Source: Daejeonella oryzae DSM 19973 (GTDB taxonomy: Bacteria; Bacteroidota; Bacteroidia; Sphingobacteriales; Sphingobacteriaceae). From it: a stretch of DNA of 64,000 bases. Position numbers and translations under genes: made by a program. Below the pieces are notes generated by a model. The model saw only the letters and a program-made list of their open reading frames with translations, did not search any database and was not told where the DNA came from. Positions 11,856 through 18,685 of the stretch are shown one piece after another (within the stretch, counting starts at the first letter, position 1; each line of letters starts with the position of its first letter). The DNA lies in assembly GCF_000422945.1 (NCBI RefSeq), contig NZ_KE383964.1, positions 310,001 through 374,000 on the forward strand, in the 5' to 3' direction.

Positions 11856-14132
11856 TTATGAATGAATAACTCTGAGCTTTGCAAACTTTAAGAGAAGCTG
11901 CTTCTGTCCCAGATCTTTAAAAAAGATAGTTGCTTTTAAATCTGGTTTGCTGCCTTCCAGATTAAGTACTTTTCCGTAGCCGAAGCGCTCATGTTCTACT
12001 TCCATTCCTACCTGTAATCCAGAGGTGTCAGAAGGAGCAAAGCCTTCACTCGGAACATGTGCCTTAGGCAATATGGAAGTTGTTTTAGGAATTGCGGCAG
12101 CTGGTTTAGGTTTTGAAAATGTTTCTTTCTGTTGCCATGCAGATCGTTCATCATCAAAAAATGGATTCCCGGTAGGTTTTTGCTGCGGTTTGTAATCAAG
12201 TTCGAGATATTTAGCATCAATTTCCTCCAGAAATCTGCTTGGTTCGCAGCTTGTTAAAGTTCCCCAGCGATATCTTGAAGTAGCGTAGGAAAGGTGTAAT
12301 TTTTTTCCGGCCCGTGTGGTGGCTACATAAAATAAACGCCGTTCCTCCTCCAGATCCGTGCGGGAATTTAATGACATCTGAGAAGGGAACAAGTTTTCTT
12401 CTAATCCCACCACAAAAACATTGTCGAATTCTAATCCCTTTGCGGCGTGAATGGTCATTAATGAAACCGTATCTGCATTTGGATTTTTGTCATTATCATC
12501 ATTTGTGAGCAAAGCAACGTCCTGCATAAATATATCCAGTCCGCGATCTTCAATGTCCTCACGTTCACTAAATTCTTTGATACCGTTTAACAATTCCTGG
12601 ATATTTTCATACCGGCTTAGTCCCTCTACAGATTTATCTGCATATAAATCTTTTAATAAGGTTGAATGCTGTGCAATGTGCAATGCCGTGTCGTAGGCAG
12701 AATGTTGTTTGGCCATCACCTGGAAACTCTGGATTAGCGTTGCAAAATTTCCTACCGAGGTCGCACTTCTGGCATCGAGATATTTGTCAGCTTCGCAGAT
12801 AATATCCCAGATAGTTAAATTATGCTGATCTGCGGCAATCATAATTCTATCCATGGTGGTATCTCCAATTCCACGTCGCGGGTAATTAATTACCCTTTTT
12901 ATTGCTTCTTCGTCATTGGGATTAAAGGTTAGCCTGAAATAGGCTATCAGATCTTTTATTTCTTTGCGCTGATAAAATGAGAGACCTCCGTAGATTTTGT
13001 AAGGTACATTAAGTTTACGCAAAGCTTCTTCCATAGATCTGGATTGTGCATTTGTGCGGTATAATATGGCAAAGTCATGGTAAGCGCAACCACTGGTTGC
13101 TCTTTGTTGAACAATGGCTTCGGCAACAATTTTGCCTTCTTCATTATCGCTAAATGCTCTGGCAACTTTAATTTTATCCCCTGTTTCATTCTCGGAGAAT
13201 ACATTTTTCTTAAGCTGATTTTTATTATTTGCGATAATACTATTGGCAACATTAACGATGTTTTGCGTCGAACGGTAGTTTTGCTCAAGTTTGAAAACCT
13301 TTAAATCAGGATAATCTTTTTCAAAATTTAAAATATTTTGAATGTTTGCTCCCCTGAAAGCATAGATACTCTGAGCATCATCGCCCACAACGCAAATATT
13401 TTCATTAATTGCAGCCAGCCTTTTAACAATTAAGTATTGGGAAAAGTTAGTATCCTGATACTCATCTACCATTAAAAATTTAAACTTGTTCTGGTATTTA
13501 TATAATACATCAGCATGCTCTCTTAAAAGAACGTTGGTTTTGAAAAGGAGATCATCAAAATCCATGGCTCCAGCTTTAAAACAGCGCTGCGCATAAATCT
13601 GATAAAGTTCTCCTAATTTTCCTCTGCCGGTCGAATTGTCTTCTGCCTGAATGTGTTCATTCTTTAAATATTCTGCAGGAGAGATGAGATTATTCTTGGC
13701 GTTGGATATTCGGTTATAAACAAAATTTGCATTATAAAGCTTATCGTCCAACTGCTGTTCTTTAAGTATAGCCCTGATCAGGCTTTTGCTGTCATCCGTA
13801 TCATAAATAGTAAAATTGCTGGGATATCCGATTTTGGTTGCTTCTATTCTTAAGATTTTAGCAAAAACGGAGTGGAAAGTCCCCATCCACAGGTTTTTGG
13901 CCTCGGGTCCCACGGCTTTCATAATACGTTCCCGCATTTCTTTAGCCGCTTTATTGGTAAAGGTTAATACTAATATATTAAAAGGGTCGACTCCTTTTTC
14001 AATTAAATATGCTACCCTGCACGTAATGACCCGTGTTTTACCTGAACCCGCACCTGCTACAATCATCACTGGTCCTGCAGTTTGTTTAACGGCCGCCTGT
14101 TGTGAAGGATTTAATCCTTGTAAGTAATTCAA
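11856..14132 (-). CDS. pcrA: ATP-dependent DNA helicase PcrA/UvrD
   Basis: 758 aa, the usual length. Superfamily 1A 3'-5' helicase for nucleotide excision and mismatch repair and for removing RecA from DNA. Motif I GAGSGKTR (about 27-34), motif II DEYQD near residue 225, QNYRST and the late motif around VGLEENLFPS are intact. The C-terminal ~100 residues hold a proline-rich linker and the small Tudor-like domain (EHERFGYGKVLNLEGS) that binds RNA polymerase in PcrA. The start is TTG at 14132, preceded by ACAGGAG; homologues begin at this same NYLxGLNPxQ segment. Confidence 0.95.
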   Translation of the reverse strand: MNYLQGLNPSQQAAVKQTAGPVMIVAGAGSGKTRVITCRVAYLIEKGVDPFNILVLTFTNKAAKEMRERIMKAVGPEAKNLWMGTFHSVFAKILRIEATKIGYPSNFTIYDTDDSKSLIRAILKEQQLDDKLYNANFVYNRISNAKNNLISPAEYLKNEHIQAEDNSTGRGKLGELYQIYAQRCFKAGAMDFDDLLFKTNVLLREHADVLYKYQNKFKFLMVDEYQDTNFSQYLIVKRLAAINENICVVGDDAQSIYAFRGANIQNILNFEKDYPDLKVFKLEQNYRSTQNIVNVANSIIANNKNQLKKNVFSENETGDKIKVARAFSDNEEGKIVAEAIVQQRATSGCAYHDFAILYRTNAQSRSMEEALRKLNVPYKIYGGLSFYQRKEIKDLIAYFRLTFNPNDEEAIKRVINYPRRGIGDTTMDRIMIAADQHNLTIWDIICEADKYLDARSATSVGNFATLIQSFQVMAKQHSAYDTALHIAQHSTLLKDLYADKSVEGLSRYENIQELLNGIKEFSEREDIEDRGLDIFMQDVALLTNDDNDKNPNADTVSLMTIHAAKGLEFDNVFVVGLEENLFPSQMSLNSRTDLEEERRLFYVATTRAGKKLHLSYATSRYRWGTLTSCEPSRFLEEIDAKYLELDYKPQQKPTGNPFFDDERSAWQQKETFSKPKPAAAIPKTTSILPKAHVPSEGFAPSDTSGLQVGMEVEHERFGYGKVLNLEGSKPDLKATIFFKDLGQKQLLLKFAKLRVIHS

Positions 14133-14242: not shown

Positions 14243-15688
14243 TTAATCGGCTTTTACTAAACTTGGGATGCTGTCATCATTCAATGTTTTGTTGATATGT
14301 ATGATTTTATCATCAATATTGTGAATGCATTTATTAAGCTGTTCAACAAATTCTTCCTGTTCTATTAACATGTCTTTTTCAAGGATCATTAAGCCTTTTA
14401 AAGTTGCAATCGGTCCTCTGATCTGGTGGGAGAGGTGAGAGGAATATTCAGATAGCTTTTTATTTTTTATCTTAAGATCTTTCGTCCTGACATCAATTAT
14501 CTCTTCGAGATTATGATTAATTCGATCCAGATCCTCTTTTTGCCTGGAAACCTCTTCGTTTAAGGTGGTTAGTTTTTTATTATCTCTGGTGGATCTCTTT
14601 ACGTTTCGGATCAGCAAGAAAATAACGCCAAACGCTAGTAAGGCTACAATGGTGCTCGCCCAAAATAGTATTTGTGTATACCTTTGCCTTGCGATGGTTA
14701 ACTCGCTTTCCCTTTGCTTTTGCTCTTGTCGGTATTGCTTTTCACGAAGGCCAACTTTGGTAGACACGTTATTTGCATATACAATACTGTCTTGCGTATA
14801 AACCTGCTGCAAATAATCTAACGCTTTTTGATAATTTTTCTGTTTATGTTCTAATTTGTATGAGATGTATAAGTAATCATATTCTAATCTGGGATCTTTC
14901 ACAATTTTAGAATAAGTTATACCCTCAAGAATTGAATTTTTAGCTTCTGCAAATTTGTTTTTTGCTATATATAAAGAAGCCAGAGTGATATTACTTCTTG
15001 CAATTGTATTATTTAAATCATTCTCTTTTGCTTTTTTAACAGCCTGTAATAAATAGCTTTCTGCTTTTTCAAATTTATTAAGACTGAAATAGGCCACACC
15101 AATATTTTGTAAAATTTGCGTTAAACCTGTGGGGTTATTGAGTTTGGTAAAAAGTTCAACGCTTTTTTCGTAATTAGCTAAAGCGAGGTTGTAATTTTTT
15201 TTTCGCTGATGAATATTACCCAAGTTTCCATAAATACCAGCTAATAAATCTCTGATTTGCAGTTTTTCAGCTATTTGCTGTGATTGACGCAGGTATTCTA
15301 AAGATTTATCAAAATCAACGTCTAAATATAAGTTGCCTATGTTATTGTAGACTTTAGCAATTCCCTCCTGATTATTACTTTGCTTAAAATATCTTAGTGC
15401 ATCCAGATAATTCTCGATAGCACTTTCACTTTGATCGTGATAATACTTTCCAATACCCTTTACTCGGTAAGCCTCTGCTATACCATTTATATAATTAATT
15501 TTTTTTGCCATTTCCATGGCTCTTTCAGAATATACTATAGCTTGTTCGGCGTCAGTTAATCTAATATCATAACCCAATTTATTTAGCTTATTTACTTCAA
15601 CGGAATCATTCGGTGATTCTAAAGAGGATTGTGAAAAAGCAGAAAGATTTATTAAAAGGAGTAGAGCTAATAATGGAAAAAATTTCAT
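14243..15688 (-). CDS. TPR sensor protein with DHp-like helix but no ATPase domain
   Basis: 481 aa. Signal peptide 1-20 (ends AFSQ), about six tetratricopeptide repeats (60-290), one membrane helix (about 333-354), a coiled coil (360-415), then a histidine-kinase-like dimerisation helix with SSHLSHQIRGPIATLKGL. It ends about 55 residues after that, so the HATPase_c catalytic domain is missing although the stop is clean and no kinase remnant follows. Bacteroidota have many such TPR signalling proteins; this one would need another kinase or act by protein contact. Its own promoter probably lies in the 15689-15846 gap. Confidence 0.78.
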   Translation of the reverse strand: MKFFPLLALLLLINLSAFSQSSLESPNDSVEVNKLNKLGYDIRLTDAEQAIVYSERAMEMAKKINYINGIAEAYRVKGIGKYYHDQSESAIENYLDALRYFKQSNNQEGIAKVYNNIGNLYLDVDFDKSLEYLRQSQQIAEKLQIRDLLAGIYGNLGNIHQRKKNYNLALANYEKSVELFTKLNNPTGLTQILQNIGVAYFSLNKFEKAESYLLQAVKKAKENDLNNTIARSNITLASLYIAKNKFAEAKNSILEGITYSKIVKDPRLEYDYLYISYKLEHKQKNYQKALDYLQQVYTQDSIVYANNVSTKVGLREKQYRQEQKQRESELTIARQRYTQILFWASTIVALLAFGVIFLLIRNVKRSTRDNKKLTTLNEEVSRQKEDLDRINHNLEEIIDVRTKDLKIKNKKLSEYSSHLSHQIRGPIATLKGLMILEKDMLIEQEEFVEQLNKCIHNIDDKIIHINKTLNDDSIPSLVKAD

Positions 15689-15846: not shown

Positions 15847-16263
15847 TTATTGAAATTGGTTCGTATGCCAGTCTATCAATCCAAATCGTCCATTTAATTT
15901 TCTGAATAATTTTCCGGTTCTTCTGCTTAATAATGATGCAACTGATGAACGTGTACTGCTTTCCTCTGCTAAACCCGGTATGCGGTTAACAATTTCTGCA
16001 ACAATTTCATTTGCCGACATCGATTTATTATTGTCTTCTAAAACTTTTATAATTTTTTTGGACCAGGTGAGAAGCTCGAATGATTGAGATGAGCTAATTA
16101 ACTTGGAGGAGGTTAACTTTTTTTTGTTGTATTCTGTAAGAAAATTCTCATGCTCTTTCAACTCCCTTAATATGGGGTTTAGGAGGTCAGTAAGCTCACT
16201 AATGCGATTTTTTATTGCATCTGAGAGAAGTTCGTATTGCTTATCTGTTAACTTTATAGACAT
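15847..16263 (-). CDS. Small coiled-coil/winged-helix protein, putative regulator
   Basis: 138 aa from the ATG at 16263 (an upstream TTG at 16278 would fall inside the promoter-like repeat). Residues 1-60 are predicted helical and heptad-like. Residues 66-132 (WSKKIIKVLE through GRFGLIDW) resemble a winged-helix domain of the HARE-HTH kind, with NEIV, SSVASLLSR and a final aromatic wing. I do not recognise a named family. It is divergent from the tandem lipoprotein genes, and TATATTTGGTTA repeats lie between, so it may control them and itself. That role is inference from position. Confidence 0.6.
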   Translation of the reverse strand: MSIKLTDKQYELLSDAIKNRISELTDLLNPILRELKEHENFLTEYNKKKLTSSKLISSSQSFELLTWSKKIIKVLEDNNKSMSANEIVAEIVNRIPGLAEESSTRSSVASLLSRRTGKLFRKLNGRFGLIDWHTNQFQ

Positions 16264-16268
16264 ATTAT

Positions 16269-16305
16269 AACTAACCAAATATATATATTTACATATTGGT
16301 TAGTT
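16269..16305. promoter_or_regulatory. Inverted repeat at the divergent promoter region
   Basis: AACTAACCAA (16269-16278) and TTGGTTAGTT (16296-16305) are perfect 10-bp arms 17 nt apart, immediately upstream of the winged-helix gene. Read on the minus strand, the left arm overlaps TATATTTG (16283-16276), a perfect Bacteroidota -7 box for that gene. The symmetry suits a dimeric repressor site, so autoregulation is plausible. Confidence 0.55.
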
Positions 16306-16343
16306 AAAATTTTAAATTTTTTCTTTGAAGTATTTTAAATTTA

Positions 16344-16357
16344 TATATTTGGTTAAC
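16344..16357 (+). promoter_or_regulatory. Candidate -7 promoter box of the lipoprotein array
   Basis: TATATTTG (16344-16351) matches TAnnTTTG, and the following GGTTAAC repeats the half-site of the inverted repeat at 16269-16305. TTTG at 16324-16327 could act as the -33 element, though the 16-nt spacing is slightly short. This would give the first lipoprotein gene a leader of about 95 nt. Confidence 0.45.
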
Positions 16358-16452
16358 TTATTATTTAAAATATGTTATAGTAAAACAAAATAGTAGCCAA
16401 ATAAACATTGAAGATTTAAACTCTAAACCCTTATATAATCAAACACTCACAC

Positions 16453-16590
16453 ATGAAAAAGTTAATCCTATCCTTAGTAGCCTTATCCGTAATCAGTATC
16501 AGTTCTTGTAAAAAAGAAGAAGGAGCAAAGCCAGAAATTAAAAACGACACTTCTAAAGTAGCAGCAAAAACACTTGGCAGTTTTGATTGA
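16453..16590 (+). CDS. Tandem micro-lipoprotein, copy 1
   Basis: 45 codons, too short for many gene finders. Signal peptide MKKLILSLVALSVISISSC with a lipobox ending SISSC: Cys19 should be lipidated, leaving a 27-residue charged peptide that ends AKTLGSFD. I do not recognise the family. Coding status is supported by three tandem copies with the same frame, length and C-terminus, and by the fact that the two differences between copies 1 and 2 are both silent. Mature product: a tiny envelope lipopeptide. Confidence 0.75.
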   Translation: MKKLILSLVALSVISISSCKKEEGAKPEIKNDTSKVAAKTLGSFD

Positions 16591-16644
16591 TTTTGATCAG
16601 AAATTTAAACTCACTAATTAAATCTAAAAAGAATTATAAAGCAC

Positions 16645-16782
16645 ATGAAAAAGTTAATCTTATCCTTAGTAGCCTTATCCGTAATCAGTATTAGTTCTTG
16701 TAAAAAAGAAGAAGGAGCAAAGCCAGAAATTAAAAACGACACTTCTAAAGTAGCAGCAAAAACACTTGGCAGTTTTGATTGA
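16645..16782 (+). CDS. Tandem micro-lipoprotein, copy 2
   Basis: 45 codons, protein identical to copy 1; only two silent base changes separate the genes. Same lipobox Cys19 and same C-terminal AKTLGSFD. The spacer to copy 1 is 54 nt and contains no terminator, so the copies are probably co-transcribed. The near-identity points to recent duplication or ongoing gene conversion. Confidence 0.75.
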   Translation: MKKLILSLVALSVISISSCKKEEGAKPEIKNDTSKVAAKTLGSFD

Positions 16783-16836
16783 TTTTGATCAGAAATTTAA
16801 ACTCACTAATTAAATCTAAAAAGAATTATAAAGCAC

Positions 16837-16974
16837 ATGAAAAAGTTAATCTTATCCTTAGTAGCCTTATCCGTAATCAGTATCAGTTCTTGTAAAAAAG
16901 AAGAAGTTATTAAACCGGAGAGTAAAAGTGATTCTAATAAGATATCTGCTAAAACCTTAGGAAGTTTCGATTGA
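16837..16974 (+). CDS. Tandem micro-lipoprotein, copy 3 (diverged)
   Basis: 45 codons. Residues 1-23 are identical to copies 1 and 2, including the lipobox Cys19; residues 24-37 differ (VIKPESKSDSNKIS), and the last eight residues, AKTLGSFD, are identical again although several of their codons differ at DNA level (ACC TTA GGA against ACA CTT GGC). Keeping the C-terminus at protein level while the bases change is good evidence for coding and for selection on that tail. Confidence 0.75.
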   Translation: MKKLILSLVALSVISISSCKKEEVIKPESKSDSNKISAKTLGSFD

Positions 16975-17030
16975 TTTAAAACGCAATCCAATAATCATTT
17001 AAAATTTAATTTATAACGTATATAATACAC

Positions 17031-17231
17031 ATGAAAAATTTAACATTAGCCATAATTGCATTAGTTGTTTTAGGATTTGCTTCATTAGGATTTACCATGA
17101 TCGAAGGCCAGTCGCCAAAATCAGAAGTGAAAGGATCTGCGGTATCTACAGAAAAAATGGTTTCAGAAATGTCTCAGTCAGATCAGGTTCAGGGACGTAA
17201 AGAAGGTAAAGAATTAGCAAGCTTCGACTAA
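17031..17231 (+). CDS. Secreted or membrane-anchored small peptide sharing the SFD tail
   Basis: 66 aa, starting ATG at 17031. Residues 5-24 form a hydrophobic signal or anchor segment without a lipobox Cys; the rest is polar and charged, with several Ser, Lys and Glu. It ends KELASFD, matching the KTLGSFD end of the three upstream lipoproteins. It follows copy 3 by 56 nt in the same direction. Function unknown. A weak hairpin (AGCC-ATT-GGCT then T run, 17239-17253) may end the transcript. Confidence 0.7.
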   Translation: MKNLTLAIIALVVLGFASLGFTMIEGQSPKSEVKGSAVSTEKMVSEMSQSDQVQGRKEGKELASFD

Positions 17232-17288
17232 TTATCATAGCCATTGGCTTTTTAAAAGAATTGTAAATTTCTCATAGTTTAAGATTTA

Positions 17289-17296
17289 TATATTTG
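17289..17296 (+). promoter_or_regulatory. Candidate -7 promoter box of the M20 peptidase gene
   Basis: TATATTTG, a perfect TAnnTTTG match, 18 nt before the ATG at 17315. It overlaps the alternative TTG start at 17294, which therefore cannot be the real start. Confidence 0.55.
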
Positions 17297-17314
17297 CTTA
17301 TTAAATCTTTTACG

Positions 17315-18685
17315 ATGCAAGAAATTAAAAAATATGTAAGTGATAACCAGCAACGTTTCTTAGATGAATTATTTGAGTTGTTGCGTTACCCTTCAGTAAG
17401 CGCTGATCCTAAATATAAAGAGGACGTATTAAAAACAGCGGATTATGTTGCTGATAAATTAAAAGAAGCCGGAGCTGATCAGGTAGAAGTTTGCCAGACA
17501 GCCGGATATCCGATTATTTACGGAGAAAAAATTATAGATCCTGACAAGCCAACAGTTTTGGTTTACGGACATTACGATGTTCAGCCGCCGGATCCATTGG
17601 AATTATGGAAAACACCGCCTTTCGAACCAACCGTTCGCGACGGAAAAATTTATGCCCGCGGTGCATGCGATGATAAAGGTCAGTTCTATATGCATGTTAA
17701 GGCATTTGAACTGATGATGAGAACGAATACTCTGCCCTGCAATATCAAATTTATGATTGAAGGGGAAGAAGAAGTGGGATCTAATAATCTTGGGATCTTT
17801 GTAAAAGATAACAAAGAAAGATTAAAATCAGATGTGGTTTTAATTTCAGATACTTCTATGATCAGTCTGGATCACCCTTCCCTTGAAACAGGTCTGAGAG
17901 GTTTGTCTTACATTGAAGTTGAAGTAACCGGTCCGAACCGGGACCTGCACTCAGGTGTATATGGGGGTGCGGTTGCTAACCCTGCAACCATTCTGGCTAA
18001 ACTGATCGCCTCCTTGCATGACGAAAATAATCACATTCAAATTCCAGGATTTTATGATGATGTACTTGCTTTGAGCGAACAGGAACGTGAAGACCTGAAT
18101 AAAGCTCCATACGATGAAGAGGAATATAAAAAAGATCTCGGCGTTGATGAATTGTGGGGAGAAAAAGGATATACAACATTAGAGCGTACCGGAACCCGCC
18201 CAACTTTGGAAGTAAATGGAATTTGGGGAGGGTATATTGGAGAAGGTGCCAAAACTGTACTTCCATCAAAGGCCAATGCAAAAATTTCTATGCGTTTGGT
18301 TCCTAATCAGCAGTCTGAGAAAATCACAAAACTATTTACCGATCATTTTCAGAAAATTGCTCCCAAAAATGTAAAAGTTACAGTTACGCCCCATCATGGT
18401 GGGGAGCCTGTTGTAACACCTACAGACAGTATTGCTTACAAAGCTGCTCAAAAGGCTATTTTCGATTCATTTGGAAAAGAGCCAATTCCAACCCGAGGCG
18501 GTGGAAGTATTCCAATTGTAGCTTTATTTGAAAAGGAACTGGGAATTAAAACTGTATTAATGGGTTTTGGGCTTGATAGTGATAATCTTCACTCTCCAAA
18601 CGAAAAATATGATATTGCCAATTACTATAAGGGTATTGAGACAATCCCTTTATTTCATAAATATTTTGCCGAATTAAGTAAATAA
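17315..18685 (+). CDS. M20 family metallo-dipeptidase
   Basis: 456 aa from ATG 17315. CNDP/PepV-like di-zinc exopeptidase, probably cytoplasmic (no signal peptide). Metal ligands and catalytic residues lie in GHYDVQPP, ARGACDDKG, EGEEEVGS and the late HSPNEK; the lid dimerisation domain (about residues 200-350) is present. It should cleave small peptides, including dipeptides from protein or peptidoglycan turnover. It starts 83 nt after the small-peptide array, probably from its own promoter, and is followed at once by a terminator before the GH25 gene. Confidence 0.92.
   Translation: MQEIKKYVSDNQQRFLDELFELLRYPSVSADPKYKEDVLKTADYVADKLKEAGADQVEVCQTAGYPIIYGEKIIDPDKPTVLVYGHYDVQPPDPLELWKTPPFEPTVRDGKIYARGACDDKGQFYMHVKAFELMMRTNTLPCNIKFMIEGEEEVGSNNLGIFVKDNKERLKSDVVLISDTSMISLDHPSLETGLRGLSYIEVEVTGPNRDLHSGVYGGAVANPATILAKLIASLHDENNHIQIPGFYDDVLALSEQEREDLNKAPYDEEEYKKDLGVDELWGEKGYTTLERTGTRPTLEVNGIWGGYIGEGAKTVLPSKANAKISMRLVPNQQSEKITKLFTDHFQKIAPKNVKVTVTPHHGGEPVVTPTDSIAYKAAQKAIFDSFGKEPIPTRGGGSIPIVALFEKELGIKTVLMGFGLDSDNLHSPNEKYDIANYYKGIETIPLFHKYFAELSK

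Follow-up and report, generated by a model that had tools for sequence, protein, structure and literature searches.

What might a row of very small secreted proteins do when proteins with unlike N-termini end in the same few residues? The question is raised by a locus of the soil bacterium Daejeonella oryzae DSM 19973 (Bacteroidota, Sphingobacteriaceae) within a stretch of 64,000 nucleotides, positions 310,001 to 374,000 of NZ_KE383964.1 (contig 3 of a 3.45-Mb genome), which we call the window. Here, three 45-codon lipoprotein genes (precursors A1, A2 and A3) are followed on the + strand by a 66-codon gene for a secreted peptide (precursor B), and a winged-helix gene and the gene of a tetratricopeptide repeat (TPR) sensor lie beside them. 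Sequence comparison indicates that the locus most likely belongs to a family in which species-specific peptides act as signals and the TPR sensor reads them outside the cytoplasm.

The starting point is the C-terminal tail. Each of A1, A2 and A3 has Cys19 in a lipobox and a mature part of 27 residues, while the hydrophobic N-terminus of precursor B, a homolog of the final array gene in several Daejeonella relatives, differs from these lipoprotein starts. All four nevertheless have K-x-L-(G/A)-S-F-D in common at the C-terminus, the final octapeptide being AKTLGSFD in A1, A2 and A3 and GKELASFD in B. The A genes form a 192-bp tandem repeat, with 190/192 identical bases between copies 1 and 2 and 137/192 between copies 2 and 3. 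When copy 3 is compared with copy 1, the first 72 bases of the coding sequence are identical at 69/72 positions and the remainder at 43/66; the final eight residues are kept, though 5/8 of their codons differ. A degenerate pattern of the tail plus stop codon has four matches in the whole genome, all at this locus, and its reversed control has none. Thus, both the presence of four small genes with a common tail and the preservation of the copy-3 tail as protein under changed codons, as claimed in the initial annotation, are confirmed, the former by the open reading frames (ORFs) and the genome-wide search and the latter by the codon comparison. In Pfam and NCBIfam scans the window precursors reach no curated cut-off, nor do those of relatives (nine scanned against NCBIfam and eight against Pfam). 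The NCBIfam model NF050142 for PG1828-family lipoproteins gives 26.6 and 27.4 bits (cut-off 50), and its match spans residues 1-36, leaving out the tail.

The initial annotation had further proposed that related genomes be searched for small ORFs with such tails and for a gene that always accompanies them. This search came out positive, and the accompanying gene is the TPR sensor: it is the sensor, and not the winged-helix gene, that is the constant partner of the precursors. First, when 60 relatives were searched with the 66-residue peptide, homologs turned up within the genus, at the corresponding position. The sensor has an orthologue in 13/20 genomes of the genus Daejeonella, and 13/13 of these carry A and/or B precursors beside it, with one genome (G013; genomes and loci are cited by our G and L handles) coding for seven tandem precursors whose tails all read KKDTTQWD. 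Among the seven genomes lacking the sensor, six have no such peptides at the locus of the M20 peptidase gene, four of them with uvrD directly adjoining the M20 gene; the seventh, G011, has a B tail only, near a contig end. As the genomes of one genus are not independent, we take this joint presence and absence as linkage and not as a strict statistical test.

Second, the sensor alignment was used to scan named genomes, which confirmed 113 relatives; the best 80 loci were kept. Five of these were left out of the counts, namely four paralogous loci (L182, L183, L184 and L187) and a distant one (L190), so that the counts cover 75 sensor loci and the window, 76 loci in all. In Daejeonella, Mucilaginibacter, Arcticibacter, Hufsiella, Paradesertivirga and others, divergent small secreted ORFs stand beside the sensor, often in arrays. 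Candidate precursors were found in 67/76 loci, with 1-12 per locus and 270 ORFs in total, including candidates in L135, L137, L139 and L143 whose frames cross masked stretches (read as X). Seven of the nine loci without candidates have only 97-577 bp upstream before the contig ends; at one of them (L113) an ORF runs off the contig end at ...GEKKDMG, and another (L127) has a 35-aa lipoprotein ORF below the length limit. In L150, the filter missed a partly masked repeat precursor that is visible when read unfiltered, and L176 is a real negative with no precursors beside the sensor. One Mucilaginibacter bin has two sensor copies (L172 and L176), with L176 adjoining ORFs that look, by eye, like a transposase and a mobile-element ATPase.

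Third, of the best 30 loci of a search of the order, 18 repeated known loci and 12 were new, and D-ended tails were present in 12/12 of the new ones; one locus of this search, L219, is the same as L150, again without a candidate. In a sample of the order, 150/400 genomes from 11/22 genera match the sensor at an E-value of 1e-90, at least two of these matches (G001 and G002) being apparently longer paralogues; in a sample of the class, 7/345 genomes match, all within the same family. We found the exact octapeptides AKTLGSFD and GKELASFD at none of the other 75 loci, which carry other versions of the tail.

The tails of these loci form a coherent pattern. A D-ended octamer with K or R at position -7 or -6 is present in at least one candidate at 64/67 loci, the exceptions being L139, whose repeat precursor has masked stretches, L175 and L178. 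Examples are KKDVGTAD, KKDVSSAD, KRDLGSAD, KNNLATAD, KHNTGSSD, RTALGNAD, RKELATAD, KQDLGQAD, KKDMSGWD, IRDIGTWD and KRPSGTMD. The octapeptide varies between species, with 47 distinct consensus octamers in 64 loci (a comparison covering 64/74 aligned loci, with the consensus set by hand for L138, L139, L146, L150, L156 and L174). An exact final D occurs in 202/270 candidates, compared to 10/152 control ORFs that passed the same filter on the other strand or the other side of the same loci, and to 1/89 controls without sensor ORFs.

Within a locus, the tails resemble each other more than the rest of the protein would suggest. At least two precursors share the octapeptide in 38/52 loci with multiple precursors, and the mean tail identity within loci is 5.86/8, as against 3.77 with shuffled locus labels (500 shuffles, maximum 4.12). 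For pairs whose bodies are less than 0.3 identical by an admittedly crude measure, tails share 5.68/8 residues within loci (470 pairs) and 3.56/8 between loci (4438 pairs, a 15% draw), the final D being fixed in both by the anchoring. The ratio of nonsynonymous to synonymous differences (pN/pS) is 0.26 for the tail codons without the final D and 0.79 for the preceding eight codons, and is lower in the tail in 38/43 usable loci, with the pairs inside one locus not being independent. At the extreme, the seven precursors of L130 keep KKDTTQWD with a pN of 0 and a pS of 0.99, close to saturation of the synonymous sites. The comparison with relatives hence upholds the selection on the tail peptide that had been read from copy 3. 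It likewise favors two further suggestions of the initial annotation, recognition by a shared partner and a signalling role resembling that of pheromones from lipoproteins.

The tail is also repeated inside single proteins. At least two copies of one D-ended hexamer occur in 98 precursors from 40 loci, at spacings of 9 residues (94 cases) upward, 12 being the commonest (152 cases). In L125 and L153, units of 9 residues follow one another with no spacer, so that the unit there is at most 9 residues long. Three loci (L139, L146 and L154) have very long tandem precursors of about 380 to 550 residues with many units of the tail motif, the one in L139 being partly masked.

These patterns bear on a first alternative, in which the tail is a general sorting or proteolysis signal, such as a C-terminal degron or an export signal, and its linkage to the sensor is incidental. 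Tails at or near the C-terminus, most with a final Asp, are what such a signal would look like. We nonetheless regard it as very improbable, as the tail pattern in the window's genome is confined to this one locus, and the tails vary between species, recur within tandem repeats and share the sensor's pattern of presence and absence across the genus.

The architecture of the sensor is consistent with a receptor at the cell envelope. In the window sensor, the Pfam TPR models match with an E-value of 8.8e-26 and HisKA with 0.0011, below the HisKA cut-off; a signal peptide and a single membrane helix were read from the sequence, and the histidine-phosphotransfer (DHp) domain has a conserved HxxRxP box. 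We aligned 74 orthologues of 454-490 aa (start codons chosen by rule; L185 and L113 excluded), of which 74/74 match TPR models and 48/74 match HisKA at an E-value of 0.001. Invariant positions are His421, Arg424 and Pro426 in the DHp part and Glu72, Arg75, Asn115, Asn116 and Asn155 in the TPR part. Because the signal sequence and the single membrane helix precede the DHp domain, the TPR domain is predicted to be extracytoplasmic. Compared to the orthodox histidine kinase plan (HisKA plus HATPase_c), the DHp domain with its phospho-acceptor His is present and the catalytic domain was not found: no HATPase appears in the 74 sensors among the 25 of 30 matched families listed, the last of which have one member each, and the window sensor ends 60 residues past the His, a plan seen in other orthologues too. 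With a conserved His but no detected ATPase domain, the DHp domain would serve another two-component protein as its phosphatase or phosphotransfer partner.

By sequence, the sensor profile matches chains of RapI, RapJ, RapF, NprR and Rap3T; it also matches designed TPRs, LGN, kinesin light chain and Hop, some of them better, so that the resemblance is not specific to the RRNPP receptors and points only to a peptide-binding TPR fold. Longer TPR proteins with frames of 511-641 residues and 33-41% identity to the sensor occur in 12/20 genus genomes (L028-L039) and were taken as its paralogues. At L182, L183, L184 and L187, four related loci from the scan of named genomes, no D-tailed peptide array was found.

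Taken at the level of the locus, we consider it likely that the small genes encode precursors of a short species-specific peptide signal that would be sensed by the periplasmic TPR domain. Gene linkage, the common tail, its specific selection, the tandem repeats, the co-occurrence in the genus and the sensor architecture by sequence are shown; the parts that we infer, namely secretion, cleavage, binding, the direction of the response and a role between cells, would run as follows. The four genes would give rise to secreted precursors of one linear peptide of about 6-9 residues ending in -SFD, exported via a lipoprotein or an ordinary signal peptide (the signal peptidase II or I routes). The C-terminal part would then be cut near the conserved basic residue to something like TLGSFD or ELASFD. 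K or R is found at -7 or -6 in 153/166 distinct tails; N-terminal cutting could plausibly take place at this residue and would yield a peptide of 6 or 7 residues. In the periplasm, the neighboring sensor would bind the peptide with its TPR domain, and the terminal Asp of the peptide may serve as the contact; if the TPR domain reads a C-terminal Asp, tandem precursors would need a cut right after that residue. Binding would alter the cytoplasmic DHp domain and so pass the signal to a separate phosphorelay partner. As the octapeptide is species-variable and amplified by arrays and tandem repeats, it could report on kin.

Neighboring genes help to weigh two further alternatives. Among the 16 largest clusters of neighbors (ORFs of at least 110 aa within the stored flanks of the 75 loci), no maturase, exporter or immunity gene was recognized by eye. 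The recurring neighbors, likewise named by eye, are UvrD, the M20 peptidase, an Xre-type regulator and other ordinary-looking genes. In one alternative, the small proteins are ribosomally synthesized and post-translationally modified peptides (RiPPs) or peptide toxins, with the tail as the core, an enzyme recognition site or a killing peptide, and with the sensor regulating them or conferring immunity. The precursors are indeed small and repeated, some lipoprotein forms weakly match a chryseobasin-related RiPP model (below its cut-off, E-values of 0.002-0.014), and CRGCGDWD is present in some A proteins. However, the RiPP plan of a dedicated maturase next to the precursor was not seen in these clusters, the stretches matched by the model stop before the C-terminal octamer, Cys is found in few tails, and the tails differ between species. 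We accordingly rate this alternative as improbable.

In the other, the tails are cell-autonomous ligands that bind the TPR sensor within their own cell and report on secretion or lipoprotein traffic, without ever being exchanged. A crude lipobox pattern is found in 87/270 precursors, which are thus possibly anchored, and the lack of an exporter in the above clusters fits as well. Yet a reporter of secretion needs no species-specific sequence, and species-specific tails and tandem-repeat precursors better suit a released, diversifying signal, which leaves the cell-autonomous ligand unlikely, if less so than the two preceding alternatives.

Several observations weigh against a peptide signal read by the sensor, or limit it. 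In 14/52 multi-precursor loci, no octamer is shared at 6/8 or more. In six of these 14, from Daejeonella-type genomes (L114-L118 and L167), the A protein has its W-D motif internally and not at the terminus, in the form Cys-x-x-Cys-G...W-D (e.g., CRGCGDWD) followed by a variable tail, and the small lipoprotein of L175 and L178 (Pedobacter glucosidilyticus) ends in TTYGE, without a terminal Asp. The aromatic residue of the A and B tails agrees in the window (F/F) and L181 (Y/Y) and disagrees in L180 (Y/W) and L144 (M/W); the A/B covariation, which at first seemed strong to us, is weakened by the latter two. The distance between motifs correlates about equally with that of the DHp part (r = 0.53) and that of the TPR part (0.56), following the sensor as a whole and not its TPR part alone. 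The partial Mantel values, 0.36 for TPR given DHp and 0.31 for DHp given TPR, likewise do not tell receptor-specific coevolution with the peptide apart from common ancestry. A comparison of orthologues for concerted change of the tail gave 26 cases for, 26 against and 17 ties, and array duplication also contributes to making the tails within a locus alike. Finally, without a detected ATPase domain, the output of the sensor would not be explained by the sensor alone.

The control of the locus, which the initial annotation had assigned to the winged-helix gene and to repeated TATATTTGGTTA sites, gained no such backing. The winged-helix gene, with a sub-threshold HARE-HTH match (E-value 0.00089, 20 bits against a cut-off of 25.9), was rejected as a constant partner, as it was found at just three distinct loci among all searched (the window, L111 and L130). 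The TATATTTGGTTA sites form a 20-nt inverted repeat that is 95% complementary, with a weaker copy at 17278-17300. A scan of the window for a promoter spacing of Bacteroidota gave two matches against 5.2 expected, neither of them here. The repeat is thus real, but nothing beyond it supports a dedicated operator, and this proposal was set aside.

The genes to either side appear to be flanks (Table 1). Relatives of uvrD flank the sensor in 69/75 loci. The M20 peptidase was considered as a maturation enzyme and rejected: it is present in 20/20 genus genomes, including those without the sensor and the peptides, and is hence treated as a flank. In 43/75 loci (e.g., L119, 6563-6928), a gene resembling those of Xre-type regulators follows downstream of the sensor in convergent orientation; the window, with only about 110 bp between the sensor and uvrD, lacks it. 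This gene might encode an output regulator or be a mere neighbor.

Table 1. Features of the locus, in positions of the window.
Feature	Position	Strand	Remarks
UvrD-like helicase	11856..14132	-	named by eye; conserved flank on the other side, outside the system
TPR sensor, 481 aa, proposed receptor	14243..15688	-	signal peptide, TPR repeats, one membrane helix, DHp/HisKA
Winged-helix (HARE-HTH-like) gene, 138 aa	15847..16263	-	same strand as sensor; accessory
Divergent control region	16264..16452	.	20-nt inverted repeat 16272-16291 / 16336-16355
Precursor A1, 45-aa lipoprotein	16453..16590	+	tail AKTLGSFD at 16564-16587
Precursor A2, 45-aa lipoprotein	16645..16782	+	tail AKTLGSFD at 16756-16779
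Precursor A3, 45-aa lipoprotein	16837..16974	+	tail AKTLGSFD at 16948-16971, different codons
Precursor B, 66 aa	17031..17231	+	hydrophobic N-terminus without Cys; tail GKELASFD at 17205-17228
M20 dipeptidase	17315..18685	+	conserved flank, probably outside the system; upstream flank in 52/75 loci

Among known systems, the nearest in working are the RRNPP or RRNPPA systems (Rap-Phr, PlcR, NprR and AimR), presented in two accounts as a Firmicutes family with cytoplasmic receptors, some members of which have several pheromones per propeptide or several similar propeptides (PMC9765709, PMC10075063). The likeness lies in a TPR receptor gene adjoining a gene for a small secreted propeptide, with secretion here suggested by signal-like N-termini, and in what would be a short linear peptide. 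Unlike the cytoplasmic RRNPP receptors, the TPR domain here is predicted to follow a signal peptide and to precede a membrane helix and a DHp domain, in a Gram-negative member of the Bacteroidota. RRNPP receptors have a DNA-binding helix-turn-helix (HTH) or a Rap-type domain N-terminal to the TPRs. Neither was seen in the 74 sensors among the 25 of 30 Pfam families listed, and RNPP_C matched 2/74. As both the cytoplasmic location and the domain plan of RRNPP are missing, we do not file the locus under that family despite the similar working.

Other systems share single traits with the locus. Phr3T and Phr105, tandemly duplicated pheromones in Rap-Phr systems of Bacillus phages, likewise have several pheromone copies within one propeptide; their Rap receptors are described as cytoplasmic, and the available part of the source mentions no separate array of lipoprotein precursors for them (PMC11343458). 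The closest studied Bacteroidota TPR sensor that we found is FimS of Porphyromonas gingivalis, which shares the plan of a periplasmic TPR domain and whose signal is stated to be unknown, with a polypeptide suggested by its authors (PMC11053733). FimS is longer and a histidine kinase (its NCBIfam model has 618 positions), and the window sensor scores 76.7 bits on that model against a cut-off of 600. A TPR domain reading an Asp-ended C-terminal peptide, as would be the case here, has an analogy in the recognition of the C-terminal EEVD of Hsp70 and Hsp90 (PMC8913300). That recognition belongs to eukaryotic chaperones, unlike this bacterial locus. The invariant Arg75, Asn115, Asn116 and Asn155 of the sensor would presumably suit a role like that of the EEVD clamp. 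The secreted precursors of the yeast alpha-factor type also repeat a short peptide with spacers, and differ in being eukaryotic, in acting through a G-protein-coupled receptor and in using other processing enzymes.

Text searches of the open-access literature, preprints not included, for such a system and for six tails as literal strings showed no description among the papers listed, which is no proof of absence. We put at about even the chances that these loci constitute a class of peptide quorum sensing in Gram-negative Sphingobacteriaceae that is new to the literature. Its pheromones would be linear, species-specific and Asp-terminated and would come from arrays of lipoprotein and tandem-repeat precursors; they would be read outside the cytoplasm by the TPR domains of membrane sensors that retained the DHp domain and lost the kinase domain.

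The loci offer defined, synthesizable candidate ligands beside a candidate receptor in many species, including some cultured strains, and with 47 different consensus octamers in 64 loci, specificity and exchange are directly testable. If the peptide signal is borne out, it would give Bacteroidota TPR sensor kinases like FimS a first class of candidate ligands, and would introduce a DHp-only type of sensor whose output would necessarily run through a partner. It would also add peptide communication to a Gram-negative phylum for which none was found in the literature searched.

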